A stretch of DNA of 54,198 nucleotides from Burkholderiaceae bacterium. GTDB lineage: Bacteria > Pseudomonadota > Gammaproteobacteria > Burkholderiales > Burkholderiaceae. A program made the translations under genes and the position numbers. Shown here piece after piece: positions 3,001 to 43,345 of this stretch. Location: positions 1 through 54,198 of the forward strand of contig CANGNV010000016.1 in assembly GCA_947455485.1 (NCBI GenBank), in the 5' to 3' direction. The notes below the pieces were generated by a model. That model ran no database searches. It saw only the letters and a program-made list of their open reading frames with translations, and was not told the origin of the DNA. The stretch's first letter is position 1; every line of letters starts with the position of its first letter.

Positions 3001-6000
3001 TGCAGGCGCACATCCAGAGCCCGAGCAACCATACGTATTATCTAAAGTGATGGCTCCCGGCACGGTCACGGCACTAGCGATATTGATTGCCGCTCCAGAA
3101 GCAAGTACTGAGTAATTAATGTTTGATAAGGATCCAGCTGTTACTGTTAATTGGCCAGTGGTAATAGAAGAAAGCTTATTACCCGCTGTTACATCGTAAG
3201 AAACGTTAGATGAGTTGGCGCTGGTATTTGCCGCCAATGTAATTGCGCCGTTCTGACTAATATTGTTATTCGAAATAAAGCTAATATTGGAGCCACTAGC
3301 CCCGGAAATGTTGCCGATCTGATAGATACCTCCTGCTGCACCAGGGATGCCAATGACATTGCCAGTCACAGTAAGGCTGCCACCAACAGCGGCGCTGTTA
3401 ATCGTAAATGCCGCAATTTGGTTTACCCAACTCACTGAAGCAGAAGTCGCTGTGCCGTTAAGCGTTATGTTGTTACCAGTGATTACGTTACCAGCCACAA
3501 CATATATACCAATGGTGCTAACCGTCGCGCCATTCATAACAACGTTGCCATTGGTCGAGGTGATATTTACGGATGTATCAATACCGCGGTTGGTATTGCT
3601 AGCCCCATTAATGGTGATATTGCCTGTTGTATAGATTAAGGCATTAATAGTTGCACCTATAGATGCTGTCGCAAGCGTCGTTAAGTTAGGTGTAGTGGCG
3701 TTAATAAAGCCAGTTACCGGAGTACATCCAGATCCAGAGCAACCAAAAGTGTTATCGATTACAAGATAGCCAGGTAAATTAACCGCACTCGTTCCAATCG
3801 CACCAGGATTAAGACTAGCCCCTGCAGATTTTTCAATAAAATTAATTGCAGAGGTAGATGTACTAGCTGCAATCGTTAGTACGCCACTAACGATTGAGGA
3901 TGTCTTGTCACCTGTCGTCGTATCAAAAGTAATATTAGCAGCGTTACCGCTAGTATTAGCCGCCAAAATCAGAGCGCCACTCTGGCTAATATCATTATTT
4001 GAAATGAAGCTGATATTTGAGCCGCTAGCTCCAGTGATATTACCGATTTGATAAATACCGCCATTAGCCCCAGGAATTCCGATCACGTTTCCAGTTACAA
4101 CTATATTGCCGCCTACTGAGGTGCTATTAATTTTGAGTGCGCCAATTTGTGTCACCCAACTAGGGGCAGCACTCGAAGTACCATTGATCATGATGTTGTT
4201 GGCCGTCACAATATTGGCTGCTGTTACATAGACGCCAATCGTTGCTACAGTTGAGCCATTAAGCGTAACGTCACCATTTTTTGAGGTAATGTCAGCCGAA
4301 GCATCAATTCCGCGGTTGGAATTACTAGCCCCGTTAATCGTAATGGCACCGTTTGCATAAATCACGCCATTAATTAAGACGCCAGACGATGCGCTTGCCT
4401 GAGCAACCAAATTGTTTGCGGTTGCACTGATATAGCCCGTAACAGGAGTGCATCCAGATCCCGTACAGCCATATGTATTGTCAATTAATACATAGCCAGG
4501 CAATGCAACCGAACTAGACCCGATTGCACCCGGATTAATTGCAGATCCAACAGACTTCGCAATGTAATTAATTGCCGAGGAATTAATTCCAGAACCAATT
4601 GTTACTACGCCGCCCGTGATGTTCGAGCCCTTAGTACCTGTAGTAGTGTTGTAAGTGATATTCGCAGCATTAGCTGTTGTATTGGCGAGCAGGTTAATAG
4701 CGCCAACCTGATTAATAATATTGTTCGAGATAAAGGTAATGTTTGTACCAACGGCTGCTGTGATCGTTCCAGCCTGATAAATACCATTACTGGAGTCTGG
4801 CAGGTTAATTACATTGCCTGTCAAAGAAATGCTACCGCCAATTGAAGCGCTATTAATAGTTAGTGCACCTAGATAGACAACCCATGCTGGTGCAGCCGTA
4901 GAGGTTCCGTTAACAATAATATTATTAGCAGTAATTGCTGAGGTACCAGCATAGACACCGTAGTTATTTGTTGTAGAGCCAGTCAGTGTGACATTGCCTG
5001 TATTGGCGATGATCGCCCCACCATAGTTAATTCCTGTTGATCCAATACTCACACCATTAATCACGATGTTGCCAGTTGTGGAAGTAATTCCGGCTAAGGT
5101 ATATACGCCCTGCGCAGCACTACTGACACCATTGATGGTGATGTCATTTTTTGCATATAGAGCATTGCTGGTGGATATTGTGATGCCCGCTGAAGCGGAG
5201 GCAAGAGTGGATGCATTGCTGGAGGTGATATAACCCGATGCTCTTGCGCCAGATGTAGATCCATACGTGTTATCAAGAACTATGTACCCCGGTAGCACCA
5301 CCGAACCCTGACCAATAATGTTTGGATTAATTGCAGAACCAGCAGACTTGGCGATATAGTTAATTGCAGAAGTGCTTGTAGCCGTACCGATCGTTAGCGC
5401 GCCGGAAGTTATGTTCGAACCCTTGGTTCCGCTAGTGGTGTCGTAGACAATGTTAGTAGCGTTACCACTAGTATTGGCCACTAAACTAATTGCGCCAACC
5501 TGATTAATGATGTTGTTTGATGTAAATGTAATGTTAGTACCACTTACACCGGTAATCGCCCCTGCCTGATAAATACCATTACTAGAATCCGGAAGATTCA
5601 CTACATTACCTGTCACGGTAATAGTGCCACCTGTGGCAGCGCTATTAATCGTTAGCGCACCTAAATAGACAACCCAGGTTGGAGCAGCCGATGATGCGCC
5701 ACTGATAACAATGTTATTTGCCGCGATTGAAGCAGTCCCAGCATAAATACCGTAATTACTTGATGTTGTTCCGGTCAGGCTTACTGTATTGGCGCTGGAG
5801 CTAAGCGCTGCCGAGTAATTAATACCCTGCGACCCATAAGAAATTCCGTTAACAGTAATTCCACTAGCAGCACTTAATGCAGCAGATATCGTTACCCCGG
5901 CAGAAGTGGTTGCAAGCGTTGAAAAATTACTAGTAGTGATAAAGCCAGTTGTAGGAGTGCACCCTGCTCCGCTACATCCAAAGGTGTTATCAAGGCTTAC

Positions 6001-9131: not shown

Positions 9132-9722
9132 TTAATGAATCGAAATATTTTGATTGGTTTTTATCTCTAGAGATTGCTCTTCATCAGGCGTATTTTTGAT
9201 TTGCAAAATGGCTTCGCCCCACCCTGCTTGCTGTCGTAATTGATCAAGCAATACGCACATTGCTTGGAGCAAATTTACAGCTAATTTGAGGTTCAAATTT
9301 GCACCTCCAGGAAGCATAAAATCCAGTGATAAAACATCATCAATTTCACCCTCATTTACATCTTCAATTTTTGCAATTTTTTCACCATTTTTTGTCAAGG
9401 CACAAGTCACATCCAAAACCAAAATAGGATCAAATCCAAGTGGAAAATTAAGACCGGTTTCATAGGCTTGAGATTGGGAATCTTCACTCTTTACTACCTC
9501 AAGAATGGCTACTTTTTCAAACTCATTCATCGCTTTCGCTGCGTCTGGTGAATGTGTTTGCTCTAACTTTTTTGCCAGCAAATGTGATGTTGCCGCAAGA
9601 ATAAATAGTGTCACACGACGCGTAAACCAGAAACGATATTCCTCTTGATTCTGTGTATTAAAGCGAAACAAAATGCGATCTTCATTCGCCAAATAGGAAG
9701 CATTAAATTGCCTGATACTCAT
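9132..9722 (-). CDS. Uncharacterised 196-aa protein in the tps locus
   Basis: I do not recognise the family. The ATG start at 9722 lies 20 bases after the stop of the IalB-like gene, so it is probably co-transcribed. There is no signal peptide. A hydrophobic stretch around residues 37-50 (VTLFILAATSHLLA) could be a buried helix. The middle part is acidic (DVNEGEIDDVLSLDF) and a second hydrophobic helix follows (LKLAVNLLQAMCVLL). The sequence looks like a soluble cytoplasmic protein. Its position between secreted-protein genes and the giant exoprotein gene suggests an accessory or regulatory role in exoprotein expression, but nothing in the sequence proves this. The coding call is supported by full-length openness and normal composition. 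Confidence 0.75.
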   Translation of the reverse strand: MSIRQFNASYLANEDRILFRFNTQNQEEYRFWFTRRVTLFILAATSHLLAKKLEQTHSPDAAKAMNEFEKVAILEVVKSEDSQSQAYETGLNFPLGFDPILVLDVTCALTKNGEKIAKIEDVNEGEIDDVLSLDFMLPGGANLNLKLAVNLLQAMCVLLDQLRQQAGWGEAILQIKNTPDEEQSLEIKTNQNISIH

Positions 9723-9742
9723 GTCTTATTTCAATCGTTTTC

Positions 9743-10351
9743 TTAGGTGGAGATGTCTTTTGAACCCGGTTTTTGAGGCTGATTTGGTCTGACATTTGGG
9801 GCTGTATTTTGAGGTGTCTGAGGCACGATTTGCACCGGTGGAACGATGAGGATTTGTGGTGATGAGGGGACTGGAATTGGCTTTTGTTCCCGCTTTTTGC
9901 TATTGGCTGCCTCTGTTAAAACACGCTCAATTGCCTGTTTTGCCCCAGCCAAACTAAACCGAGTAACGCCAAATGCTCCAGATTGGAGCGCTACCGCAAA
10001 GCCGATACCATCTCCCCCTTGGGTGGCCTGTAACACTGTATTAAACGGAGTCAGAATCTGAAATACATTGCCATTAATTAAAGTGCATTCCATGCTCAGT
10101 GCAGTAGAAACGCCGGGGCTATTCATGAGCACCGAGTATTTGGTGCCTGGGCTGCAATTCAGGCCTTGACGCAAGTAAAACAGGCATTGCTCATGGGAGC
10201 AAAAAAGTCCAAGGGACGAGTTGGCATCCGCAGCTGTATAGGCCTCATTGGTATTACCGTTTAGTTCAGCCGTCCAGCTTTGATAGACTATCTTTTCTCC
10301 CGCTACAGCTAGGCCAGATACCAGTAGGAGCGAGAGAAGGATGACTCTCAT
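9743..10351 (-). CDS. Secreted IalB-like protein with proline-rich tail
   Basis: A 202-aa protein with a clear Sec signal peptide (MRVILLSLLLVSGLAVAG, cleavage about residue 18). The body has a YQSW start, paired cysteines (LFCSHEQCLFYLRQ and NCSPG) and a mixed beta pattern resembling the invasion-associated locus B (IalB) fold. The last 50 residues or so are a Pro/Gln-rich tail (PVPSSPQILIVPPVQIVP) that looks disordered and may reach the peptidoglycan or outer membrane. The start ATG overlaps the stop of the upstream foldase gene (ATGA), which points to translational coupling. It is probably periplasmic or surface-associated and belongs to the tps locus. The IalB assignment is by eye and only moderately sure; secretion is well supported. 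Confidence 0.6.
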   Translation of the reverse strand: MRVILLSLLLVSGLAVAGEKIVYQSWTAELNGNTNEAYTAADANSSLGLFCSHEQCLFYLRQGLNCSPGTKYSVLMNSPGVSTALSMECTLINGNVFQILTPFNTVLQATQGGDGIGFAVALQSGAFGVTRFSLAGAKQAIERVLTEAANSKKREQKPIPVPSSPQILIVPPVQIVPQTPQNTAPNVRPNQPQKPGSKDIST

Positions 10352-11157
10352 TGAATGATCTTCGCGGATTCACGCAAGCGCTTCACTGTGTCGCCCAAAT
10401 ACTGCTGAATGATGGCCTGTTTTAGCTGATTTTGTGAGGCTTCGAAGCTTGGTATTTTGGATGAACGGGTGTCGTCTACGCGAACCACTACCCAAGCATC
10501 CCCAATCCTGATGGGCAACTTGGTGAAACTGCCTTTACTCATATTCGCTACGACATTAGCTACAGGTGGAGCCAATTGTTGAGCAGAAACCCATCCCAAA
10601 ACACCGCCTTGAGATTTAGTAGCTCCATCCAATGAAGCCTCCTTGGCCACTTTGGCAAAAGAATCCCCTGCTTGCAATCGGCCGATGACCGCAATCGCTT
10701 CAGGCTCTGACTTAAGAACGATCTGGCTAATCTTAAATTGCGTAGCTGAATCACTGCCATTACCTAGATACTGTTTTTGCTTGTTGTACTCTTCACGCAA
10801 CTGCTCATTGCTAATAGGATTCTTTTTGAAATGATTCTCTAGAAACACTTGTAAATACAGATTTTGTTTGAGCTGTGTAATTTGATCTTGTAAATCAATC
10901 TCTTTTTCAAGGCCTTGCTTCAATACTTCTTGAACAATCAGCTGGCGATTAATGAGTTCATTCTTAATGGCATCACGCAATTGGGGGCTATCCTTTTGCC
11001 CTTGCGCCAAAGCTGCTTGTAAGTTGAGATCAAATAAACCTTTAGTAATAGCAGTGCCGTTAACTGTGGCGATGAATTCAAAATCGGATGAGGCTGCAAG
11101 CGCACTAATAGATAAACAGCAGAGAAAAGCAGCAAGAATTGCACAGCAAAATTTCAT
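10348..11157 (-). CDS. Periplasmic PpiC/SurA-type peptidyl-prolyl isomerase chaperone
   Basis: The ATG at 11157 is chosen because AAGGA stands six bases upstream; a TTG at 11169 is less likely. The signal peptide (CCAILAAFLCCLSISALAA) is followed by a SurA-N-like helical chaperone region (about 30-130, with VNGTAITKGLFDLNL and LINRQLIVQEVL). A parvulin domain covers about 135-235 (FKISQIVLKSEPEA, GDSFAKVAKEAS, GGVLGWVSAQQLAPP). A C-terminal helix follows. It would act in the periplasm as a foldase for unfolded secretion substrates. In Bordetella the parvulin-like Par27 assists FHA secretion, so a parvulin between tpsB and tpsA fits a dedicated exoprotein chaperone (inference). It overlaps the next gene by four bases. 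Confidence 0.9.
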   Translation of the reverse strand: MKFCCAILAAFLCCLSISALAASSDFEFIATVNGTAITKGLFDLNLQAALAQGQKDSPQLRDAIKNELINRQLIVQEVLKQGLEKEIDLQDQITQLKQNLYLQVFLENHFKKNPISNEQLREEYNKQKQYLGNGSDSATQFKISQIVLKSEPEAIAVIGRLQAGDSFAKVAKEASLDGATKSQGGVLGWVSAQQLAPPVANVVANMSKGSFTKLPIRIGDAWVVVRVDDTRSSKIPSFEASQNQLKQAIIQQYLGDTVKRLRESAKIIQ

Positions 11158-11280
11158 GGGATCCTTCAAGGATTGCTAAAAATTACAACTCATACAGCGT
11201 CTCATCAATTGCACAAAAATATCGAGTGGCACGCCCCTGAAGCAAAAGAACATGCAACTCAGCACATGCCTTGATTCAAA

Positions 11281-13062
11281 TTAGAAGTTATAGCTTGCAG
11301 TAACCCAACCTCTTGGTTGCGTAGTAGTTCCATCGGTATTTACTGGCTGACCTGTTTGACTGTAAAGCGGGTTCTGACCAATCTTCCAAGCGACCATTGC
11401 ACCGATGTTCCAGCCCTCGTAATCCCACTTCAGCCCTAAACCTGCCCCCATAAGGGAATAGGTATTGTTGGCATTTGTATTTGGTGAGCCTGTTCCCTGC
11501 CAACTAGGATACATAAATTTGTATTGCTGAACCACACCAGCGTCAAAGAATGCGGTTGCCATTAGTTTTGGCTGTAAGTGCTGCCGTAATTCAACTGAGA
11601 AAAGCCCACCTTGAGAGCCGCCGGATTGCGCAACTGGATAGGCACGTACGCCGTAAGGACCGCCTAAATAAAACTGTTCCGCAGAGTTCAGGTTGGTCGA
11701 GGCAAACTGGCCAGATAGCGAGGTATATAAAGTAGTTTCACCACCTTCAGTCAATTGCTGATTACGATTTCCGGAGAGTGTCAGCTTGCTGAAGGTGCTG
11801 GGTGTAATGGGCTGATATACCGTAGGCGTAGTGTTTGGAACAGCATACATACTGTAGTTGGCCATGCTGGTTCCCAAAAGATTGAGATAGCCAAAAACTG
11901 CAGTCACTGATCCACTAGAGACTGCACCATAACCTAAGCCGTCAACCATGTTTCCCGACATTCCAACCGAGATATTGTTAATGTTGTACGCGCTAATCGT
12001 GCTGCTAGTGATCGTATTACGGTTGTTGTAACTCTTAATGTCGTAGTTGAGGCTGGTATTCAAATTGGCGCCTTGTGAACGAAGCAAAGGGTAGGCAGCG
12101 CTTAACCCTGTAGTCCAAGCATCGCCTGCACCACCAGTCGAGGCGTAGTTACTGACGTTTTTATATTGCAAGTAGGTCCCAGCCAAACCCAGTCTTAAGC
12201 CATTCTCCGAACCGGGAACCGAGATTGCACCTTGCACGTACTGCGATCCCTCAGAAAAGATACCGTTCACGGATGCCGCATCACCAATACCCAATGGGCC
12301 GTTGAGATTTAAGGCAAACACGCCTTGGTTAGCACCAGTGGTTCGGCTTCCATAGTTATTTGCCTCAACCCTACCCTGCACTAAATTTGGTTGCGTTAAC
12401 TGAACGCGCACATTGGTTTCGCCATCCTTATCACCCGGCTCTAACTGGCTAGAAACCATGACGCCTGGGGTTTCATTCAAAATCACAATAGCGCGCTCAA
12501 GCTTGTCCATATTCAATGGATCGCCCTGACTATTGGCATAAGTAATGTATTGAGCCGCGCGCTCTTTACTGAAGCGTGTTGGCCCTTGCGGATTTTCTAC
12601 AACGACCTTCCCAAGCTTAGCTTCAGTTACTAAAATTTTCACTACACCATCAGCAATTTTTTGCGGTGGCAAAATAGCTTGGACTGTATAACCCTTGCTG
12701 CGATACAAATTCTGAATGGCGTCACATGCTCTTTGTAAGTCATCAAAGCTTACTGGCACTCCAACCCATGAGCGAATCGCAAGTTGCACTTCGGCCTCGG
12801 GAAGAATGTTTACACCCTCAATGGCAAAAGATTTCACCGTAAAGCGTAACTCACCCTCTTTTGGCTGGGAGGGCTGAACAGGTGCAGCTCTACCTGGCTC
12901 TGGCAATGCTAACGGAGAAGGTAATGGCAGCTGTTGCTCCAACCCCTGCTGCAATGCGCCCGCATCAACCTGCGCATAAACCTGTCCAGCAGAAAAGATA
13001 CCTATTGCCGCAAGGGCGAATAAGGATTTATGAAAATGATTTGAAGGAGTGCTGTATTTCAA
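11281..13062 (-). CDS. TpsB outer-membrane transporter (FhaC/ShlB/HecB family)
   Basis: A 593-aa protein with signal peptide (FALAAIGIFSAGQVYAQ, cleavage about residue 30) and a Pro/Gln linker. A POTRA_2 domain covers about 72-150 (FTVKSFAIEGVNILPE, LYRSKGYTVQAILPPQ, GVVKILVTEAKLG), then a second POTRA-like part with LNETPGV, then a 16-strand ShlB barrel ending in the aromatic residue of ASYNF. The loop-6 signature appears as GGPYGVRAYP; VRAY replaces the usual VRGY. By family it sits in the outer membrane and exports TpsA proteins. It is the only TpsB in the window, while there are two TpsA genes, so it may serve both. A 123-base gap separates it from the foldase gene downstream. Confidence 0.95.
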   Translation of the reverse strand: MKYSTPSNHFHKSLFALAAIGIFSAGQVYAQVDAGALQQGLEQQLPLPSPLALPEPGRAAPVQPSQPKEGELRFTVKSFAIEGVNILPEAEVQLAIRSWVGVPVSFDDLQRACDAIQNLYRSKGYTVQAILPPQKIADGVVKILVTEAKLGKVVVENPQGPTRFSKERAAQYITYANSQGDPLNMDKLERAIVILNETPGVMVSSQLEPGDKDGETNVRVQLTQPNLVQGRVEANNYGSRTTGANQGVFALNLNGPLGIGDAASVNGIFSEGSQYVQGAISVPGSENGLRLGLAGTYLQYKNVSNYASTGGAGDAWTTGLSAAYPLLRSQGANLNTSLNYDIKSYNNRNTITSSTISAYNINNISVGMSGNMVDGLGYGAVSSGSVTAVFGYLNLLGTSMANYSMYAVPNTTPTVYQPITPSTFSKLTLSGNRNQQLTEGGETTLYTSLSGQFASTNLNSAEQFYLGGPYGVRAYPVAQSGGSQGGLFSVELRQHLQPKLMATAFFDAGVVQQYKFMYPSWQGTGSPNTNANNTYSLMGAGLGLKWDYEGWNIGAMVAWKIGQNPLYSQTGQPVNTDGTTTQPRGWVTASYNF

Positions 13063-13188: not shown

Positions 13189-14610
13189 TTATCTCTGAAG
13201 AGGCAGCCTGACTTTAAATGTGGCGCCTTGATTGGCGGAATCCTCATGCCATATAGTGCCGTCATATCTAGTAACAATGTGCTTGCACAGCCAGAGTCCT
13301 AAGCCCATGCCCGACTGCTTGGTAGTGTTGAGCAACTCAAATAGATTTTGCTTAAACTGGGCCGGCACTCCTGCCCCATTATCTGAAATGCTGAAATTAA
13401 CTAAGTCTCTATCTGCAAATGCTTCAATCTGGATGACGCCATCAGATGTAGCTGAGCTTGCTATCGACTGAATTGCATTGTTCACCAAATTTAAGATCAC
13501 TTGCTCAATTTCGCTGGCGCTCACCTTGATGATGAGGTCGGATTCCACTCTTAATTGAATTTGAATCTGCTTAGCCTTCAACTCTGGCTTAATAATATCT
13601 AAGACCTTGGCGATCAAATTCCCCAGCCCATACTCTTGGGTCTGCAAGTCGGCTTCAGTAAAGATGGATCTTAGGGATTGCACAATTGTTGCTGCTCTAT
13701 TGTTATCAAACTCAAGTGCGTCTAAAACCTCTTTACCGATATCTGCACTAAGCAAACCTTTGTCTAACTTCATTCTCAAAAATTGAATATTGAGATTAGA
13801 TGCGCCAAGCGGTTGACTTAACTCATGGGCAATTGAGGCCGATAAAGCGCCAGTGGCTGCAGTCTTATTCGCTTTCAACAGATTGGCAATTAAAGACTCG
13901 CGCTCTAAAAGTAAGTCGCGAACACGTATGTTGTCTTCTATGTTTTTGGCGTTTTCATTGCTTAGGGTTTCAGCCCAGAATCCTAAAATAGAAACATAGG
14001 ATAAGACGGTAAAGGAGACTCCGAACCATCTTACCAAGGTGCTGACGAAGGGTTCTTCATACAAATTAATATTGCCCGTTGTGGTTACCGAAAGAACCAT
14101 CCAGAGACGAATTAATCCAAGCACCAACTCAGCAAAGGTGGTGAACATTAAAAAATCAAGTTGAATGTGACGACTTTTTTTACGAGCCATGAATAACTCA
14201 ATCAAGATCCATACTAGACAGGCTATCAATACACAAACTACAAATAGAACCCTAGCTTGAAATGTGCCGTAACGTCGCAAATATTCAAATACAAAAGCAA
14301 AGACAATAAAAAGGATTGGCGATAGCCGGATCAATCTCTTAGTCGATCCGGCATTAATCGATCGGCTAAATAATGCGAGAAAAAAGTACGCAGCGAAGAA
14401 AAACGTATTTGCGAGTGTCAGGAGGAACGGCGAAATAGTGGAGGCAGATGCAAAACATAAGAACGCAATAATATTGAGCCCAAGGGCAATCAACCAAAGA
14501 TTATTGAAGTTGCTTAGCTTGCTCTTACGAAAGTAAGGGATAGAGGAAATAAACAAGCCGCTGAGCAGGAGTGAAAAAACTAGAAAGAGGGCTTCGTTTG
14601 CATATTTCAT
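13189..14610 (-). CDS. Membrane sensor histidine kinase, orphan
   Basis: The N-terminal half (about residues 5-215) is a run of seven or so hydrophobic segments with short loops, a membrane sensor with no recognisable periplasmic domain. A coiled coil leads to the HisKA dimerisation domain with ASIAHELSQPL (phospho-acceptor His about residue 262 from this start). The HATPase domain shows the N box (NLVNNAIQSI), the G1 box (ISDNGAGVP) and the G2 box (GMGLGLWLCKHIV). No response regulator is adjacent, so its partner must lie elsewhere. I chose ATG 14610; the frame also opens at TTG 14691, which would overlap the divergent nadA promoter. It is transcribed toward tpsB, which makes regulation of the tps locus a reasonable but unproven guess. 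Confidence 0.88.
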   Translation of the reverse strand: MKYANEALFLVFSLLLSGLFISSIPYFRKSKLSNFNNLWLIALGLNIIAFLCFASASTISPFLLTLANTFFFAAYFFLALFSRSINAGSTKRLIRLSPILFIVFAFVFEYLRRYGTFQARVLFVVCVLIACLVWILIELFMARKKSRHIQLDFLMFTTFAELVLGLIRLWMVLSVTTTGNINLYEEPFVSTLVRWFGVSFTVLSYVSILGFWAETLSNENAKNIEDNIRVRDLLLERESLIANLLKANKTAATGALSASIAHELSQPLGASNLNIQFLRMKLDKGLLSADIGKEVLDALEFDNNRAATIVQSLRSIFTEADLQTQEYGLGNLIAKVLDIIKPELKAKQIQIQLRVESDLIIKVSASEIEQVILNLVNNAIQSIASSATSDGVIQIEAFADRDLVNFSISDNGAGVPAQFKQNLFELLNTTKQSGMGLGLWLCKHIVTRYDGTIWHEDSANQGATFKVRLPLQR

Positions 14611-14703
14611 GGGTATAGATGCTACTACCTTTTTTAATGCGTCATATTGAATCCAGAGGCCTTGGCGCCTGAAGAAAGGTGGCCTAACCAACCCTCACAA
14701 GAT

Positions 14704-35079: not shown

Positions 35080-35493
35080 ATGTCTTTCAATCTTCAGAAC
35101 GATCAGGAAGAAAGCGGCATCATGGCCGAAATCAACATGACTCCGATGGTGGATGTCATGTTGGTACTTCTCATTATCTTCATCATCACCCTGCCCGTGA
35201 TTCAGCAGGCGGTGAAGGTTGAGCTTCCAAAAGCCAATAGCGTACGCAATGAAGTGAAGCCTGAGTCCGTTCAACTCTCGATTGATGCTCAAGGTCAAAT
35301 ATTTTGGAATAGCACACCAATCGATTTAAAAACTTTTGATGGCTATGCAGAAAAAGCTGCTCAAAAAGAGCCGCAACCAGAAATCAATTTGCGCGCTGAT
35401 AAGTCTGTGAAATATGAATATGTTGCTCAAGTATTAGCCGCATCCCGCCGCGCTGGCCTCACGAAGCTTGGGTTTGTAACTGAACCTAACTAA
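35080..35493 (+). CDS. exbD: ExbD/TolR-family protein
   Basis: A 137-aa protein with one membrane helix (about 22-42, MVDVMLVLLIIFIITLPVIQ). The channel-lining Asp is in MTPMVDVMLV, as in all ExbD proteins. The periplasmic domain (about 50-137; LPKANSVRNEVKPESVQLSI, LRADKSVKYEYVAQVL) is of family length. Its stop overlaps that of the convergent small secreted gene at 35490 by four bases, leaving no terminator between. Confidence 0.93.
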   Translation: MSFNLQNDQEESGIMAEINMTPMVDVMLVLLIIFIITLPVIQQAVKVELPKANSVRNEVKPESVQLSIDAQGQIFWNSTPIDLKTFDGYAEKAAQKEPQPEINLRADKSVKYEYVAQVLAASRRAGLTKLGFVTEPN

Positions 35494-35942
35494 GGTTTTG
35501 TAGCAACGCATTGCTCTTGGTAGGTCTTCGTACCCTCACCAAGGGTGGCAGAGAGAATCCCGCCTTTAATGGTCTCAGCTTTTCTCAGTTGACCAGTCGA
35601 GCGATTGATGGTGATCACCGTGCTTACTAAACCAGGCCCATACTGAATACCATCAAAACTCTCAGGCGGAAAATTAGCCTCCATTGAGATCAGGACTGTC
35701 GATTCGTTAATGAGGACATTCTTAACAGCCTGCCTACCCAACTCATCGGATTGATCTAAATCCCGATCATCCACATAGACTTTTGCCTTCTGATTTTTTG
35801 AGGCTGGGCTAACTTTTAAATCGTAGGTTTCGGTGTAATTATTCTCTGAACGAGTGCAATTAAATTCAAGGATGTCTAGGCCCCATGCCACGGAAGACAT
35901 AAAAAGCATACTGAGGCAACATGCTAGTTTTGATGAATTCAA
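35490..35942 (-). CDS. Small secreted protein of unknown function, end of exoprotein/binding-protein run
   Basis: A 150-aa protein with a signal peptide (LACCLSMLFMSSVAWG, cleavage about residue 21). Mature part is beta-rich: DILEFNCTRSENNYTETYDL, SVLISMEANFPPE-type STVLISMEANFPPESFDG, and STVITINRSTGQL, with one Cys near each end (NCTRS and EQCVATKP), possibly a disulfide. The STVITINRSTGQL strand is common in small betaproteobacterial periplasmic proteins of unknown role. It is the last of six same-strand genes, 14 bases after the TAXI gene. Function not recognised. Confidence 0.75.
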   Translation of the reverse strand: MNSSKLACCLSMLFMSSVAWGLDILEFNCTRSENNYTETYDLKVSPASKNQKAKVYVDDRDLDQSDELGRQAVKNVLINESTVLISMEANFPPESFDGIQYGPGLVSTVITINRSTGQLRKAETIKGGILSATLGEGTKTYQEQCVATKP

Positions 35943-35956
35943 AGCTAATGCGAGAG

Positions 35957-37138
35957 CTATTCTAGTTTGGAGATGTTGCTTGTAATGCTATTGAATTGAT
36001 CGGCAATACTGGGAGCGTCATCATCGCCGCCCTTATTCTTAGGCTCCTCATCATCCTTTGGTGCTTTAAACCATTTGAAGACCACCAGAGCTATGGATAA
36101 CAAAGACATAACTAAACCAAAAATTACCTTAATCTGATCTATAAATTGCGCCGTCATGAAAGGCTGCTTACTGGAAATGTATAACTCCGTTCCATCGGAA
36201 ATTGGAAAGCCAGACGGGGTCAATATATTCTCTTCAGAAATAGGAAAGCTGAATCGAGAGCTTATCTGTGGGCTATACAAAACGGGCAACAAGGCCGATA
36301 TAGCACGTGAATCAACATTTTTATTGGCCAAAAGATTCAGATTAACTCCGACCACTCGAATATCTGTGGCGGGTACTGGTGGCGAGATTTGATACATGTA
36401 CGCCAGAATCTTTGTGTCTGCAACCCAGCCCATACGCATTGCCAAGGATGGTGGAAAAGACATTTCTAATAATTGATAGCCGCGCTTTTGCACTAAAAAA
36501 TCTACCGTAGCCGAAGGAGCATAAGATACCTGAACAATGACATCGGGCAACCAAACTGGCTTCATGCTCAAGAGCTGTTCGTCGCTAAAGTTAGTCTCCA
36601 CATAATCCACTTCAGGGACTAAACCTGAAAAACGCAATATTTGATTGGAGACAATGCTGGGACCACCATTTTTCTCACCCAGATTGACGGTCTTGCCGCG
36701 AATGTCATGAATCGTCTTGACATCGCCCTTTACTAAAAAATGGATTAACTGTGGCGCAATTGAGGCAACCTGCCTAACGTCGTCGTAGCCAACGGGATCA
36801 ATGCCACCCTGCACGAAGGCCAGGTCTAAGGTGCCATCATTTAAGTTGTTTAGAGCCTCAAATGAACCTGCTGTTGGCTCAATCGTTAAAGAGATGTTTC
36901 GTCGAGCCGCCTCTTCTTGCAATACTTTGGCCAAGTGATGGCTTTTGGTGAGCATCCCACCGCCACTGATGCTTAATTTGTAGTGCCGCGGAAATAGATC
37001 ATAGGCAAATTTGCAGGCGAGTCCAAGCAAGATGGCAATAGCAATTAGGGCCAAGCCTTTTCGAATATGGTGCTTACTTCTCAGCCAATCTAAGGCTGAA
37101 AATAAATACTGTTCAACTTCATTAGTCGGATTACCCAT
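35957..37138 (-). CDS. Membrane-anchored TAXI-family solute-binding protein
   Basis: A 393-aa protein. The central part (about 50-320) is a TAXI/NMT1-like periplasmic binding fold: SISGGGMLTKSHHLAKVLQE, GTLDLAFVQGGIDPVGYDDV, IRGKTVNLGEKNGGPS. The protein has an N-terminal helix about 26-47 (GLALIAIAILLGLACKFAYD) that is more like an anchor than a cleaved signal, since about 25 residues precede it. It also has a second helix about 335-357 (VIFGLVMSLLSIALVVFKWF) followed by a cytoplasmic acidic tail (KNKGGDDDAPS). TAXI proteins normally feed TRAP permeases; none is here. It starts 11 bases after the PstS-like gene upstream. Confidence 0.88.
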   Translation of the reverse strand: MGNPTNEVEQYLFSALDWLRSKHHIRKGLALIAIAILLGLACKFAYDLFPRHYKLSISGGGMLTKSHHLAKVLQEEAARRNISLTIEPTAGSFEALNNLNDGTLDLAFVQGGIDPVGYDDVRQVASIAPQLIHFLVKGDVKTIHDIRGKTVNLGEKNGGPSIVSNQILRFSGLVPEVDYVETNFSDEQLLSMKPVWLPDVIVQVSYAPSATVDFLVQKRGYQLLEMSFPPSLAMRMGWVADTKILAYMYQISPPVPATDIRVVGVNLNLLANKNVDSRAISALLPVLYSPQISSRFSFPISEENILTPSGFPISDGTELYISSKQPFMTAQFIDQIKVIFGLVMSLLSIALVVFKWFKAPKDDEEPKNKGGDDDAPSIADQFNSITSNISKLE

Positions 37139-37149
37139 GAGCTAAGGCC

Positions 37150-37986
37150 TTACAGAGAAACTTGGGTTAAGCCATGCTTGGCAAATATATCTTGTCCAGC
37201 CGCACTCAAACTAAAACGAACAAAATCTCTTGTAGCTTGATTCGCTGATTTTTTATTAACTAAGAACATATCCCTGGACAGAGGGTAAAGCTTAAGTAAA
37301 AGCGTTTTGTCATTAATCTCAAATCCATTAATGGCAACCGCCTTTACCTTATCGCTAAGATTTTTATTCGTAAGATAACCAATTCCGTACGGATCTTGCG
37401 CAATTAAATTTAATACATCGATAGCACTATCAGACATTTTTGCATCTCGTGCAAATTTAGAACCTCTCAACACGACATCTTCTACGAAAGCACGCGTACT
37501 GGAGCCTTCATTTCTATTGTAAAAATGAATCCTCTTGTTGGGACCACCCAATGCATTCCAGTTATTAATTGAACCGTCGAAAATACCATCCAATTGCTCA
37601 AGGGAGATGCTCTTCATATTCATACTGGGGTGCACCACAATTGCTATACCTTCTATACCAATGAGGTTGCTATGTAAGTCGAGGTTAAATTCATCAAAAT
37701 TCAGATCTCTAGACATCATCGCTAAATCGATCCCACCGTTATCCAATGCCACTAGACCGGCAAAGGATCCGCCTCCTTGAATAGCCACTTTGACGTGGGG
37801 ATGTTTTTCGATAAACGGGGCAATTAATAAGCTTACAAAGCGTGTTACCGCCACCGATCCAGAGATCATTAATTCTTTTTGCACTCTTGCAATAATGTAC
37901 GGATAAGCAATCAATCCAGTTAGAGCCGCGCCCCCAAGGCCAGCAGCAATACCTATATTTCGAAGTAACTGACGACGATTCATCAT
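37150..37986 (-). CDS. PstS-like substrate-binding protein with Tat-like signal
   Basis: A 278-aa protein of the phosphate-binding PBP_like fold. The N-terminus MMNRRQLLRNIGIAAGLGGA has a twin-arginine-like motif followed by a hydrophobic helix. Core features are ISGSVAVTRFVSLLIAPFIE, VAIQGGGSFAGLVALDNGG, IDLAMMSRDL, LDGIFDGSINNWNALGG and NRNEGSSTRAFVE, the anion-loop segment seen in PstS-type proteins. It starts within the stop of the previous gene (TAATG), so it is coupled to it. No pstCAB genes are near. The ligand may be phosphate or another oxyanion; this is not proven. Confidence 0.88.
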   Translation of the reverse strand: MMNRRQLLRNIGIAAGLGGAALTGLIAYPYIIARVQKELMISGSVAVTRFVSLLIAPFIEKHPHVKVAIQGGGSFAGLVALDNGGIDLAMMSRDLNFDEFNLDLHSNLIGIEGIAIVVHPSMNMKSISLEQLDGIFDGSINNWNALGGPNKRIHFYNRNEGSSTRAFVEDVVLRGSKFARDAKMSDSAIDVLNLIAQDPYGIGYLTNKNLSDKVKAVAINGFEINDKTLLLKLYPLSRDMFLVNKKSANQATRDFVRFSLSAAGQDIFAKHGLTQVSL

Positions 37987-38774
37987 TACTCGCCCACCAC
38001 AGGAATTAAGCCTGCACCTTTGATGATGGCCTGCCCTTTGTTTGGATCAAGGCAAAAAGCAATGAAGTCCTTTTCCTCTTTAGTGGCAGTTGGCTTTATC
38101 AGTAATTGCAAGTTATTGCGTATGGGGTAGCGAAGCTGCTTAATATTTAGATAAGTGGGCAATATGCCATTGATTGCTAAAGGCTTCACTTTTTCCTTGT
38201 TCAAAAAAGTCGTGCCGACATACCCTATTGCAAAAGGATCGGAGGTAATAGCATTCATTAATGAATTTAAATCGGAGACTACTTTTGCCCTCAAACTAAT
38301 ATGCTCTTTACCGGCCACCTGTCTTTTCCAGGGCTCATAGGTCCCCAGTTTCGGATCATGACTGACAACATTAATCGGCCCTAAGTATTTACCTAAGGAG
38401 CTCCAGTTATTTATCGCTCCCGTGAATACGTCATGCAACTGCTCGAGCGTTAAGTCATTAATTGGGTTGGCTGGATTAACAATGGCCACCAAGCCATCGG
38501 TAGCAATGGTGACTTCCTCAATTTCAAGCTTATTTTTGTGGGCCCACAACTGAATATTAGGGGGAATCTGTCCAGAAGCCATGCCGATATTAGCGGTTCC
38601 ATCAAAAGCAGCCTTATAGCCCATCGCAGTACCGCCGCCAAGCAACGGTAGGCGAATATTTGGGAATTCATCCATATATTGCATGCCAATCTGCTGCATT
38701 AACTTCATGACTGTTGTTGAGCCGCGAAGTTGTAAAAAATGCATATCAGTTTGATCGATGGATTTATTGGGCAT
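37986..38774 (-). CDS. PstS-like substrate-binding protein without export signal
   Basis: The ATG at 38774 is preferred; the frame also opens at TTG 38780, giving the ATGA-like coupling to the DUF4239 gene. About 262 aa. The binding-fold core appears almost at once (LQLRGSTTVMKLMQQIGMQY), then RLPLLGGGTAMGYKAAFDGT, ANIGMASGQIPPN, LEQLHDVFTGAINNWSSLG and PFAIGYVGTTFLNKEKVKPL. It is a paralogue of the next gene. No signal peptide precedes the core, and the upstream frame is closed by a stop 19 codons before the TTG. So it is either cytosolic, or has lost its signal. This is odd for the fold. Confidence 0.85.
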   Translation of the reverse strand: MPNKSIDQTDMHFLQLRGSTTVMKLMQQIGMQYMDEFPNIRLPLLGGGTAMGYKAAFDGTANIGMASGQIPPNIQLWAHKNKLEIEEVTIATDGLVAIVNPANPINDLTLEQLHDVFTGAINNWSSLGKYLGPINVVSHDPKLGTYEPWKRQVAGKEHISLRAKVVSDLNSLMNAITSDPFAIGYVGTTFLNKEKVKPLAINGILPTYLNIKQLRYPIRNNLQLLIKPTATKEEKDFIAFCLDPNKGQAIIKGAGLIPVVGE

Positions 38775-38776
38775 TA

Positions 38777-39550
38777 TCAAGACCCCAAAGACGGCAGAAT
38801 GTGCACTATAGCGCCAGGGGTTACTCGACTCTCACCCACAAATAGACTCTCTAAAGCAATCACCAAGGTAAACAGCACTGCAATGCCTATCGTTACACCC
38901 CCTACATAAGCAACCATTTTTGGCAAAGGATTTTGCAACCAACCAAAGATCACAAGCAATGCAACAGAAATAGCTAAAGCATCAGACAAATAGGTGGGCA
39001 ACTGAAGTCTTGCAGCAGATAAGCGCGCCTCCCTTACATCAGATAGCTGATTTAAGGTTGTCACAATTTCAGCTCTTGCCATTTGCTGCACAGGATTTTT
39101 TGGATCTAGAAGTCGAATACCCTGCGTCAAGTCTGTTAATACATTAGTCGCCTCTTCGCTTCTTTCATTCTTGGCCATGAGAGGCCATTCATCATCAACT
39201 ACTGCATCGGCATAGTTTTTTAAATCTCCCTGCAGCTCAACTGAATGTGAACCACCAAAAGCGGCCAGAGATCGATTTAACTTAAACATCAGAGCGGCTT
39301 CGCGCGAGACTAGATCTTCGACGTTACGATGATCGCCCTGAACACGTACTAAAGCAAACGCAATTAAAAGCAAGGTAATAGAGGTGAATAATTTAAAGCC
39401 CTCTTCAGCACCTTTAGCAAGATGCTCATCTGGATTTAATTTGTACTTCCAGCGAATATATAAAGGAAGGGCTGTAGATATCAGCAATCCCATACACGTT
39501 ATGAAAACCCCGATGACAATATTAGGGAGTGTATGTAAATAGTTAATCAT
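38777..39550 (-). CDS. DUF4239 (bestrophin-like) membrane protein
   Basis: A 257-aa integral membrane protein. The N-terminus has two helices (about 8-30, IVIGVFITCMGLLISTALPL, and 50-68, GFKLFTSITLLLIAFALVRV). A soluble central domain (about 70-180) follows with EDLVSREAALMFKLNRSLAA. Two C-terminal helices close it (about 190-210, DALAISVALLVIFGWLQN, and 215-240, VAYVGGVTIGIAVLFTLVIA). The VSREAALMFKLNR pattern is typical of DUF4239. Related bestrophins are anion channels, but no channel activity is shown here. It lies 22 bases after the exoprotein gene. Confidence 0.88.
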   Translation of the reverse strand: MINYLHTLPNIVIGVFITCMGLLISTALPLYIRWKYKLNPDEHLAKGAEEGFKLFTSITLLLIAFALVRVQGDHRNVEDLVSREAALMFKLNRSLAAFGGSHSVELQGDLKNYADAVVDDEWPLMAKNERSEEATNVLTDLTQGIRLLDPKNPVQQMARAEIVTTLNQLSDVREARLSAARLQLPTYLSDALAISVALLVIFGWLQNPLPKMVAYVGGVTIGIAVLFTLVIALESLFVGESRVTPGAIVHILPSLGS

Positions 39551-39572
39551 GTATTACAAATCCTTGTGCCAA

Positions 39573-42500
39573 TTAATGGAGAATAAATAAACTCAAAGTA
39601 GACATGAGATTTACTGATTCAAGACTCTCATAATAATTCTCCGTACTCCGGGAGCGGCCTGCATTTACTGGACCGGAATTACGTATTGATGGTACATCAT
39701 CATAAGATTGCGCCAGGCTATCACCCCCTCTAAGAACAACTGGTGCAGCGACTAAATTTGGGGCAACCTGCGGGAATGGTAAAACGTTCCCGGCAAATGG
39801 ATTTTTTGCCATAGCGGCAATCACAGCTGGATTATTGGTCATCGCATTAATGCGACTGCTGTACTTTCCTTCTCGTGGAGAATTGGGTTTTGTACCAGCC
39901 ACAGTTTTAGTGCTGCCTTCTTTCGGTGCAGGCTTGTCGCCGTTGCGGAAGCCATTAGCGTACTTACTAACGTATTTTGATGTCCCATTACTAGATCTAA
40001 CTGGACGATCCCTAACGTCTAATTTTTCCGTTCCATTCTTAGAAATTCGGCCTTCTCTCGACTCCGCATTATTAGAGCGCTCCCTATTTTGGGCTACACG
40101 GGCACTTGGTGGTGGCGGCTGTGTTGCTGGAGGTGGGGATGCTGAAGGTGGGGGCGGTGCAGCAGGTGGCGTGAGCTGAATGCTCCCGTCAGCCATCACC
40201 ACTAAAGGTGGGGTCCTAGCAGTCGCTGGTGCAGAAGTATCTTCCCTCGTGGCGACAGGAGGAGGCGCACTTGCTACAACAGGAGGTGGCAGTGCAGGTG
40301 GAGGAGGTGCTGGCGATAGTAAAGATGGTGGTAGCGGTGGTGGCGGTGCGGGAGCTGCGACTGGAGCAGGTGCTGGTGCGGGTGCTGCAATAGGTTGGGC
40401 TGAGGTAATCGTGAGGGCCGTAGGTACTGATGCCAACATGAAATGGCCTGAGTCTGCCCCAGCGAGCGTCAAGCCTTTGACCGTCAAGCTTGCATAACTG
40501 CCACTGCCCAAAGTACCCGCAATAGCAGCCGTATTGCTGTAGTAGCTAGGTGTACCGCTAATTGAAAGATTTGCATAGCTACCAGTGCCGAGGTTAACAA
40601 TAGTGCCAGAGGCATCCACAATCTCGTAACCCAAGTTCGGCGATCCCGCTGCTGCAGACAGTGCTGCCACTCTGATGAAAAGAATACTGCCCAAATCAAT
40701 ACCGCCGCTTGATGCCCCTGCAACCATGGCTGTATTAGCCATTAGAGATGAGATACCAGACACTTGTGCATTAATGACGCCACTCAAACCAGTCCCACCA
40801 TTGGCCTTGATAAGACGACTTTGTAAATCTAAAACGCCGGCATTGGCAATCAAATTAATGGAGCCACCATGAGTTGATCCTCCTGCATTTAACTCTCCAG
40901 CAATTTCTATGTCATTAGCATTAATTCCAATCATGCCGCCAGAACCAGCAGTTCCAATTGCTTGTAGCAAACTGCCAGCCCTAGTGTAGACATATGTACC
41001 CCTCAGATAGACTGACGCACCGTTAGTCCCGCTAGCCAGAACCTGAGCTGTGCCCTCCAAACCAACTACTGCGGCACTAGCTGGATCAATTTGGCTTGCC
41101 GTCAAGTAAATAACATTGCTTGCAGCTTGCGTCACAGAAGTAACGGTCAGTATTGAGGGATCGTTTGCCGCCGTACTAGAGTAAATTTTATTTAGGCCCT
41201 GATTTGCATTTTGAAGATTCAAATCAAGAGCGCTTGCCATTGCTACTGGCACCAAAGGAACGCCCGCATTTAGCCTTAGGGTGCCCGATATAAAAATAGA
41301 TTGCGCCAAAAGCTCAATGGCATTGCCCAATGTTCCGGCGCCACTACCAAACAAATAATAGTTACTTGTTTGAATCGTGCCATAGCTGAAGATTGTCTGC
41401 GCTTGGATAGTCACCTTAGAGGCATTAATTGATGCACCCACCCCGAGGTATGCGATTGAAGACTGGATAACCACATCCAAATTTTGCCCAGTGATGCTGC
41501 CATCAAGGCGAAAGTTGCCTGCAGCACTGAGAGTCAAAGTAGTGTAATTAGTGCCCGCCTTAAGAATATTAGCCCCGCTATCAATGACCATTAATCCTGT
41601 GCCATTCAAAATACAGGTGCCTAATGTACATGCGCTTGTATTTGCCGTTACGGCAATCGTCACGTTGCTATTGGTCAAAGCCTCTGAAATTACTGCGGCA
41701 GTTGAACTATTAATAAACAAATCAACTGGATCTAATAACCAAGTTCCTGCTTTGCCATTTGCACTCTTGGCGCGGGTATCAATTTGAGTGGTGGGCGCAA
41801 TACTTACTTGGCCCTTGGAACTAGTCTCGATAAAACCGCCATTGCCAGCTAGTACACCACCCATCGACTTAAGAAGGCCAGCAACTGTAGTTTGCACTTT
41901 GGACCAAACGGCAATTGCACCACCATTACCGACTTGAGTAGCCGAAGTATCAATTAAAGCATTCTCTTGTATGGTGACTGAGCTAGCAAGTTGATTGTTT
42001 TTCTCTGCTTGGTTTGCGTTGGCTAGAATTGCCTCCTGGGTTGGAGTGCTCACCTGAGTGCCACCACTGACCTGGGTATTGGCAAGACCAATATTCACTT
42101 GACCACCAGCAGTTGCACCCGTTGCCGTTGTCTTGGAGTTGGCTGCTACGGTAATGTCATTACCTACCAAGTTAATCTGACCGCCCTCTTGGTTTTGACT
42201 ATTGGCACTAATCTTGCCAGCCTGCGTAATGTTATTCGCTACCAGCTCGATTACACCGCCGTTGTTCACTAAGCTGTTAGCTGAAATCTTGCCAGTGTTT
42301 CTGATAACGCTAGCCATGAGTTGATTGGCTGACCCTGCGGCAATTACAACTAGACCGCCGTTGACTTCAATGACCCGCTTGTTTTCTATTAAGGCGTTGT
42401 AGGCTGACTTATCTACCTTTAGGGAGATTAAGGAGCCACCTTTAAAGTCCAAGGTGATCTGCTCACCAGCTCCCAAGGCCACTGTACCGGCTCCCTTTTT

Positions 42501-43133
42501 TGCTAGGAGGTAACCATCATTGCGTACTTCAGGGGCTAGTAAGGCAATGTAGCCATTGTCTGTATTGGTTCTAATCTTGCCTTCGTTAACTACTTGACCA
42601 GTGCCATTACCTTGGTAAGTAGACTTACCATCCATAAAATCTTTATCGGCGATGTTCATGGTGGAAGCGACTACACCTGCCGCATTAATGTCGGCACCTT
42701 TGCCAAAAGTAACGCCATTCGGATTTACAAAAATAACTTGGCCATTCGCTTTGACTGCACCATCAATCATCGAAGCTGTTGCCCCTGTTACGCGGTTCAG
42801 CGTTACTGAATTTGAATTGGGTTGATTAAAGTTGACAGCAGCATTTTTACCAACGTTAAAAGCATCCCAATTAATCACCGCTCTTTGGGAAGTTTGGTTG
42901 ATATTCATCACTGCATTGTTGGCAGTCGTTGATGAATTAAGAGTGGCATTACCTGCAACTACTTGACCGCCAGTTGGGAGGGTATTTTGCGCGGGGACTG
43001 CGGGGGCAGCATGAAGAGTGCTCGCCGAAAATGACAGGAAAAAAGAAAGTGAAAATACCTTCCTTATCTCCTTAGATAAAGATTTGGTAGTGCAAAAAGG
43101 AATAGTGGAAGAAAGTCTTCCTTTGCGATTCAC
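39573..43133 (-). CDS. Second TpsA-type exoprotein (haemagglutination domain, proline-rich tail)
   Basis: The first plausible starts are TTG 43136 and GTG 43133; I prefer GTG (MNRKGRLSST), but no clear Shine-Dalgarno is seen. About 1186 aa. A long basic signal region leads to the cleavage-like HAAPA, then the TPS/haemagglutination domain with VNFNQPN and VNPNGVTFGKGA. About residues 470-620 hold a Cys pair (SACTLGTC) also present in the giant exoprotein. Beta-helix strands follow, then an SGHFMLASVPTALTIT segment recalling MBG/YDG-type domains, and an unusual Ala/Pro-rich linker (PAPAPAPVAAPAPPPP). The C-terminal 250 residues are basic, low-complexity and not recognised. It heads the run of binding-protein genes. 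No own TpsB is nearby; the one at 11281 is a candidate. Confidence 0.88.
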   Translation of the reverse strand: MNRKGRLSSTIPFCTTKSLSKEIRKVFSLSFFLSFSASTLHAAPAVPAQNTLPTGGQVVAGNATLNSSTTANNAVMNINQTSQRAVINWDAFNVGKNAAVNFNQPNSNSVTLNRVTGATASMIDGAVKANGQVIFVNPNGVTFGKGADINAAGVVASTMNIADKDFMDGKSTYQGNGTGQVVNEGKIRTNTDNGYIALLAPEVRNDGYLLAKKGAGTVALGAGEQITLDFKGGSLISLKVDKSAYNALIENKRVIEVNGGLVVIAAGSANQLMASVIRNTGKISANSLVNNGGVIELVANNITQAGKISANSQNQEGGQINLVGNDITVAANSKTTATGATAGGQVNIGLANTQVSGGTQVSTPTQEAILANANQAEKNNQLASSVTIQENALIDTSATQVGNGGAIAVWSKVQTTVAGLLKSMGGVLAGNGGFIETSSKGQVSIAPTTQIDTRAKSANGKAGTWLLDPVDLFINSSTAAVISEALTNSNVTIAVTANTSACTLGTCILNGTGLMVIDSGANILKAGTNYTTLTLSAAGNFRLDGSITGQNLDVVIQSSIAYLGVGASINASKVTIQAQTIFSYGTIQTSNYYLFGSGAGTLGNAIELLAQSIFISGTLRLNAGVPLVPVAMASALDLNLQNANQGLNKIYSSTAANDPSILTVTSVTQAASNVIYLTASQIDPASAAVVGLEGTAQVLASGTNGASVYLRGTYVYTRAGSLLQAIGTAGSGGMIGINANDIEIAGELNAGGSTHGGSINLIANAGVLDLQSRLIKANGGTGLSGVINAQVSGISSLMANTAMVAGASSGGIDLGSILFIRVAALSAAAGSPNLGYEIVDASGTIVNLGTGSYANLSISGTPSYYSNTAAIAGTLGSGSYASLTVKGLTLAGADSGHFMLASVPTALTITSAQPIAAPAPAPAPVAAPAPPPPLPPSLLSPAPPPPALPPPVVASAPPPVATREDTSAPATARTPPLVVMADGSIQLTPPAAPPPPSASPPPATQPPPPSARVAQNRERSNNAESREGRISKNGTEKLDVRDRPVRSSNGTSKYVSKYANGFRNGDKPAPKEGSTKTVAGTKPNSPREGKYSSRINAMTNNPAVIAAMAKNPFAGNVLPFPQVAPNLVAAPVVLRGGDSLAQSYDDVPSIRNSGPVNAGRSRSTENYYESLESVNLMSTLSLFILH

Positions 43134-43256
43134 CAAATACTTTGTAAAAAATAGTAACGACTTGATTTTACAAGAGTTTTTCCTGAAATGAACCTTCCCA
43201 ATCAGGGGAAAAGTGTCATTTAAAGCCTGGAAATGCAGTTTTTACAAAATATCGAT

Positions 43257-43345
43257 TGGTGCCCGAGGCCGGAATCGAACCGGCACGACTTTTTTGAGTC
43301 GGCAGATTTTAAATCTGCTGTGTCTACCGATTTCACCACTCGGGC
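43257..43345 (-). tRNA. tRNA-Leu (anticodon UAA)
   Basis: A class II tRNA on the minus strand. Acceptor GCCCGAG pairs with CTCGGGC, discriminator A, CCA encoded (43257-43259). The anticodon arm is CAGATTTAAAATCTG with UAA. The long variable arm is CCGACTCAAAAAAGTCG and the T arm GCCGGTTCGATTCCGGC. It stands alone between the exoprotein and the penicillin-acylase gene. Confidence 0.97.

Follow-up and report, generated by a model that had tools for sequence, protein, structure and literature searches.

The 54,198-nucleotide window analyzed here (contig C16 of a Burkholderiaceae assembly of 1.65 Mb in 39 contigs, 85% complete; GenBank GCA_947455485.1, CANGNV010000016.1) carries on its minus strand a cassette of five genes, 35957–43136, that is inherited as one unit. 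It encodes a two-partner-secretion (TPS) exoprotein, TpsA, a bestrophin-like membrane protein of Pfam family PF14023 (DUF4239), two PstS-type binding proteins (PstS1 and PstS2), and a protein with a TAXI-like binding domain between two hydrophobic segments. The five genes keep their order in the Polynucleobacter genomes that carry them, and the trio of binding-fold genes recurs beyond it. We tentatively favor a reading in which the exoprotein is combined with a bestrophin-fold protein and with a binding-fold trio that would form a membrane-anchored periplasmic complex, sensing a small anion and gating the channel.

In the direction of transcription, the run begins with TpsA (39573–43136, 1187 residues), which has the TPS domain of two-partner secretion at its N terminus (PF05860, E = 9e-39) and is best conserved at residues 401–450 and at the C-terminal end; it was assigned a TTG start, and a GTG at 43133 is a possible alternative. 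DUF4239 follows (38777–39550, 257 residues; PF14023, 5.6e-32), then PstS1 (37986–38774, 262 residues) and PstS2 (37150–37986), both of which match PBP_like_2 (PF12849, 1.1e-23 and 5.6e-31) and score under the NCBIfam PstS cut-off. The TAXI-like protein comes next (35957–37138, 393 residues; PF16868, 2.7e-12), followed by a small secreted protein of 150 residues with no family match (35490–35942). A preliminary description of this DNA, made from the letters alone, had placed six minus-strand reading frames at these positions and named the first five as above; both points were borne out, each of the five being matched by a Pfam family. Its membrane-anchored TAXI protein indeed has hydrophobic segments at residues 28–46 and 336–354, and the TAATG junction (37988–37984) and gaps of 22, 11, and 14 nucleotides that it listed are right. 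It had also called the run free of permeases. A family scan assigned none of the six run proteins to an ABC or TRAP family, and gltS, pstCAB, and a TRAP membrane component are absent from this run and from those of its relatives, the rest of the genome not having been searched; that part of the claim holds, but DUF4239 is modeled as a bestrophin, so that a conduit within the run is possible.

The genus set comprised 151 genomes, our own included. An orthologue of the TAXI-like protein (at least 65% identity) is present in 10 of these, and PstS1 occurs in exactly the same 10; genus matches to the TAXI-like protein at 19–28% identity, mostly frames of about 450 residues, were left out as paralogues. 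All 10 genomes keep the order TpsA-DUF4239-PstS1-PstS2-TAXI, with identities falling to 51% for PstS1 and 45% for PstS2; TpsA is cut in two of them, by the contig end in G133 and by the end of the fetched stretch in G113. The order is also present in a named strain beyond the set (L007), against which dN/dS is 0.03–0.09 for the four proteins after TpsA, and the TAXI-like protein of the window is 99, 97, and 82% identical to three named Polynucleobacter records, which places the window in that genus. The conservation of the five-gene order is far beyond chance and extends across species, so that the refuting case named in the preliminary description, an order confined to one strain, does not apply. 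With starts placed by homology, the junctions measure 22–51 nucleotides for TpsA-DUF4239, 0–4 for DUF4239-PstS1, and −4 to +12 for both PstS1-PstS2 and PstS2-TAXI. A TTG/ATG overlap at 38774–38780 had been proposed for PstS1, and such an upstream, overlapping start exists in the window and in L042, L044, and L045, but the overlap depends on the choice of start and is absent in the seven other rows, where PstS1 starts only 0–4 nucleotides past the DUF4239 stop, equivalent to the ATG at 38774.

Occupied and empty sites, together with a second site in G016, define the five genes as one unit and the small gene, proposed earlier as a sixth member, as a bystander of the site. The left border is a minus-strand tRNA-Leu(taa) at 43257–43345 (ARAGORN), seen at the cassette in the window and in five other genomes; in the rest it is lost to the end of the contig or of the stretch. 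On the right, small gene-exbD flanks the cassette in all but one of its 10 genomes. The small gene belongs to this exbD site and is found in 93 of the 151 genus genomes. We fetched 14 of the 93 sites, 13 from cassette-free genomes and one from G016 itself, and in 12 of the 14 the small gene comes immediately after the tRNA-Leu(taa). G016 has an empty tRNA-Leu site (L112), and its five genes lie after serS and tRNA-Ser(cga), with the small gene about 600 kb away. Two unrelated genes stand between tRNA and small gene in G002 (L113, 2570–5930), an extra gene stands between small gene and exbD in G018 (L106, 10526–11164), and in G077 (L110) no tRNA-Leu was found within the fetched stretch. With other, unrelated genes at or near it in these three genomes, the site resembles a hotspot for insertion. 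The tonB, exbB, and exbD genes are neighbors of the site and are present there also without the cassette; the labels acsA, fumA, murI, tonB, exbB, exbD, and purU are presumptive names for the neighbors, and pvdQ denotes a penicillin amidase.

Several candidate features of this region were set aside. A six-gene operon was rejected with the reassignment of the small gene to the site, and integration through a duplicated tRNA 3' end was rejected for want of such a repeat at the right border. Base composition is uninformative (45.3% GC in the cassette, 46.2% in the window), as are promoter and terminator scans, which gave fewer matches than shuffled sequences. In the region between tRNA-Leu and TpsA (43137–43256, minus strand), an alignment of eight upstream regions read by eye has only a −10-like GTAAAATCA in common, no Pho-box scan having been made. 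Seventeen nucleotides of the PstS1 mRNA (38201–38217) are perfectly complementary to the tRNA-Leu (43281–43297), a match that distant relatives do not keep and that is probably due to chance.

The two PstS-type proteins differ at their N termini, where signals were read by eye from motif and hydropathy. PstS1 has no hydrophobic N terminus, and neither have 63 of its 71 homologues, these being the ones with a readable start (among them P0311, a partial oddity); of the other eight, the motif end is missing in seven, and the eighth, P0310, is longer. PstS2 begins with a twin-arginine (Tat)-type N terminus, NRRQLLRN. In all 11 rows from Polynucleobacter (L007 plus the 10 genomes), as well as in G1051, a genome from another class, PstS2 has a twin-arginine N terminus and PstS1 has no signal, and TatC is encoded in 12 of 12 genomes. 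By motif and hydropathy, then, a signal-less protein stands beside a partner with a Tat signal in the presence of TatC, a pairing as Tat hitch-hiking predicts. In G353, from another family of the order, PstS2 has a plain hydrophobic anchor that is not of Tat type, and PstS1 has a Sec-type signal. The phosphate-type motifs persist in PstS2: S-R, as in solved phosphate-binding relatives, in every one of the 11 Polynucleobacter rows, and GS(S/T)TR in 10 of them; we take the S-R and GSGTR residues to be phosphate contacts.

A TAXI-type fold is predicted for the TAXI-like protein, whose AF2 model (pLDDT 79) matches VcGluP, a TAXI-type protein (8s4j; Foldseek E = 1e-18; PMC11574862). At the sequence level the protein scores under the curated NCBI cut-off (TIGR02122, 50.1 bits versus 84.35), and its Gln-110 is nearly invariant and aligns with a Gln of solved TAXI proteins in three alignments that begin at profile positions 71–82. 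Among the matches listed, 54 of 120 homologues have 38–57% identity, and a search of plasmids with the protein gave no match. For DUF4239, the model matches the bestrophin fold at 12% identity to bestrophins, and a bestrophin channel fold is accordingly predicted from the model. The protein stands between TpsA and PstS1 in all 10 genus genomes with the run, and PF14023 was not found in 14 control genomes; the family is scarcely mentioned in the open-licence literature.

The likely cognate TpsB for the cassette TpsA, judged by sequence, is encoded in the same window at 11281–13062 (minus strand; ShlB/FhaC type; PF03865, 3.7e-21; POTRA_2, 4.2e-15), 23 kb from the run. In G016 a ShlB/FhaC-type TpsB of 595 residues follows the run itself, overlapping the TAXI stop by one base, and the window TpsB is 68% identical to it; among the other eight cassette genomes, seven have a TpsB that is 63–75% identical to the window one. 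The TpsB on the cassette contig of G113 (C2) was left out of this alignment, and the two copies on its contig C5 are 37–38% identical. TpsB is present in 10 of 10 cassette genomes against 66 of 151 overall (hypergeometric 1.7e-4, ignoring kinship), and in 9 of the 10 it lies about 20 kb or more from the run. Three cassette genomes (G033, G026, and G016) have a single TPS-domain match and a single TpsB each. The others have more than one TPS-domain protein and/or more than one TpsB, G133 excepted, whose TpsA is truncated where the contig ends, so that it gave no TPS-domain match. One TpsB can serve more than one TpsA (PMC5422565). The window TpsB is itself part of a separate TPS locus (1–8877 and 9132–13062) with a PpiC/SurA-like protein, two small unknowns, and another TpsA, at least 2959 residues long and cut off by the window start. 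Adjoining TpsB on the same strand is a histidine kinase with, by eye, a hydrophobic N-terminal half (13189–14691), a possible regulator of that locus.

The trio PstS1-PstS2-TAXI is not confined to the genus. It occurs in the same order in G353, with identities of 28, 32, and 34%, and in G1051, with identities of 31, 28, and 46%, and in both genomes PstS1 and PstS2 overlap by 4 nucleotides. TPS and DUF4239 genes are absent from both trio runs, neither genome having been searched for DUF4239 elsewhere; the G353 genome as a whole has no TPS-domain match and one ShlB match. Divergent from the trio stand two NarK-like MFS genes in G353 (L049, 4488–7578, minus strand), one of them above the NCBI NarK cut-off, and in G1051 (L119, 5525–7723, minus strand) a SulP-like gene with a cyclic-nucleotide domain, below the NCBI and above the Pfam cut-offs. 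A membrane protein of anion type, be it bestrophin-like, NarK-like, or SulP-like, thus accompanies the trio in three of three lineages; with few cases and differing genes, we regard this as a lead. Relatives of the TAXI-like protein were found in 5 of 399 genomes of the order, own included (single-protein search, E ≤ 1e-30), in 1 of 369 of the class, the own genome only, and in 4 of 398 of the phylum, own included (both by alignment, E ≤ 1e-60); within its family, G353 alone of six genomes has one. From these order, class, and phylum counts the family is rare in genomes. Two further genes were seen beside the trio: directly after it in G353 a protein with TPR and a GT41 glycosyltransferase domain (L049, 10555–12960), GT41 being, we presume, the family that includes HMW1C, the glycosyltransferase of a TPS adhesin; and, facing it on the opposite strand in G1051, a phosphonate-binding domain fused to a histidine kinase (L119, 11667–13436).

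The preliminary description had proposed an undescribed envelope system. The frame, however, is that of a TPS locus, with a likely TpsB in the same window. TPS (type Vb) loci with accessory genes are described in PMC5422565, and hmw1abc, hxuABC, the bcp loci with bcpO, and pdtA-phdA-pdtB resemble the cassette in having a TpsA with a TPS domain, a TpsB encoded in the genome, and extra genes in the run; they differ from it in that the accessory genes here encode three binding folds plus a bestrophin-like protein and in that TpsB is mostly remote. The Pseudomonas aeruginosa pdtA-phdA-pdtB locus is listed beside exbB2-exbD2-tonB4, and its pdtA is PhoB-dependent, according to PMC7035377; the likeness here is the exbD/exbB/tonB set beside the cassette site, though that set is also present without the cassette. 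A TAXI protein without TRAP is known as TAXI-GltS (BP0403/BP0402) in Bordetella pertussis (PMC12344293). It shares with the cassette a TAXI-fold protein held at the membrane and a run without TRAP permease, whereas here gltS is missing from the run, two hydrophobic segments replace the lipid anchor, and two PstS-type partners are added. PstS proteins (4gd5, 4q8r, and 1twy) share the PBP_like_2 family and the PstS2 motifs; in contrast to them, the run has no pstCAB, and PstS1 lacks signal peptide and Arg. To the bestrophins (KpBest, 4wd7/6jlf; VCCN1; BEST1/2) DUF4239 is likened by its model, at 12% identity and without a sequence-level match. Tat hitch-hikers, with PaoABC and HybOC as precedents (PMC4273604), share the Tat-type partner, the signal-less neighbor, and adjacent or overlapping genes, but those are redox enzymes, whereas binding-protein folds stand here and their co-export is only predicted. 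Among the titles and abstracts listed by searches of an open-licence library, none described such a design under TPS with TAXI, TPS or bestrophin with a periplasmic binding protein, or a Polynucleobacter filamentous hemagglutinin island, and these listings showed no comparable trio, with a run free of ABC and TRAP genes and a Tat-type protein beside a signal-less partner.

In the reading that we tentatively favor, PstS1 would fold with PstS2 in the cytoplasm and be exported through Tat on the PstS2 signal, and the pair would dock onto the periplasmic TAXI domain at the inner membrane. Ligand binding, possibly of an oxyanion on PstS2, which we propose because S-R and mostly GS(S/T)TR are kept there, might then change the state of DUF4239. 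TpsA would leave through the TpsB encoded at 11281–13062 and at the surface may represent the output of anion sensing. Gene content and order, site occupancy, trio recurrence, the absence of a PstS1 signal, the PstS2 twin-arginine, and the TAXI hydrophobic segments are direct observations; the complex, its export, ligand, and gating, and the tie to TpsA are what we infer from sequence, and several findings weigh against them. One PstS1 homologue, P0310 (35% identity), does carry a hydrophobic stretch ahead of the motif, and the non-Tat case comes from a single genome, G353. PstS1 has lost the phosphate-type Arg and GSGTR in 11 of 11 rows, with A-(S/A)-G and GTY(E/D) in place of the motifs, PstS2 of G016 has SSTTR, and neither protein keeps the phosphate-type motifs in G353 or G1051. 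An alignment profile of DUF4239 found no sequence-level match among solved bestrophins, and five PF14023 proteins are encoded in the own 1.65-Mb genome (contigs C1, C3, C4, C16, and C23; L001–L005), so that DUF4239 is not specific to the cassette. The Klebsiella pneumoniae bestrophin is a Na+ channel (PMC8496536). Because the G353 and G1051 runs lack DUF4239 and TPS genes, bestrophin gating is not the ancestral role of the trio, and the divergent permeases there could mean assisted uptake, not sensing. For the run genes, dS is below 1 solely in the comparison with L007.

Such uptake would have PstS2 and the TAXI-like protein capture an anion and pass it to the neighboring membrane protein, here DUF4239 importing it. 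The constant place of DUF4239 between TpsA and PstS1 in 10 genus genomes, its bestrophin model, and the divergent NarK-like pair and SulP-like transporter all fit this, and BP0403-GltS is a precedent (PMC12344293) for a TAXI protein working with a non-TRAP partner. However, each of the three lineages has a different membrane protein there, encoded on the other strand in two of them. Channels, moreover, do not concentrate solutes. We consider uptake unlikely; if true, it would amount to a new binding-protein-dependent conduit, comparable to TAXI-GltS. About equally improbable in our estimate is that the three binding folds escort TpsA, acting in the periplasm as its chaperones or quality control until it reaches TpsB, with DUF4239 as bystander or anchor. 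Although the linkage to TpsA is tight in 10 genus genomes, TpsB overlaps the run end in G016, and TPS loci do carry accessory genes such as hmw1C and bcpO (PMC5422565), in G353 and G1051 the run that holds the trio has no TPS gene, the former genome lacking any TPS-domain match beside its one ShlB match. PstS1 is also absent from 56 of the 66 genus genomes with TpsB, and PstS2 keeps ligand-type motifs.

The missing N-terminal hydrophobic stretch, in the window protein and in 63 of 71 homologues with a readable start, and the distance of 0–4 nucleotides between DUF4239 and PstS1 would also suit a cytoplasmic PstS1 that senses by touching the cytosolic part of DUF4239, PstS2 and the TAXI-like protein working outside. 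This we hold to be quite unlikely, given the Sec-type signal on the G353 counterpart and the Tat-type signal on PstS2 where PstS1 lacks one, as co-export expects. It is very unlikely that these are ordinary orphan binding proteins that feed ABC or TRAP permeases encoded elsewhere and travel together by chance. Orphan solute-binding proteins do exist (PMC12344293), and ABC and TRAP permeases were sought in the run alone, but the three binding-fold genes stand in the same order within the genus, in another family, and in another class, G016 has the unit as a block at a second site, and a two-segment TAXI protein and a signal-less PstS1 are unlike ordinary soluble solute-binding proteins.

Returning to the anion-sensing complex, a wider version that we put forward with considerable doubt makes the trio a Tat-assembled three-fold receptor that occurs in at least two classes of a single phylum and would plug onto different anion-conducting membrane proteins; in Polynucleobacter it would sit within a mobile TPS cassette, gate a bestrophin-type channel, and couple anion sensing to exoprotein display. 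The cassette, found in some freshwater Polynucleobacter, is a TPS locus with a new accessory module, with some chance that the trio forms a separate kind. It shows a TPS exoprotein and its accessory module together at different tRNA sites, with TpsB encoded elsewhere. If true, the sensor reading would give PF14023 a testable partner. Solute-binding folds are nearly always read as parts of transport systems; here a trio of them holds the same order in different classes, and its run contains neither an ABC nor a TRAP gene.

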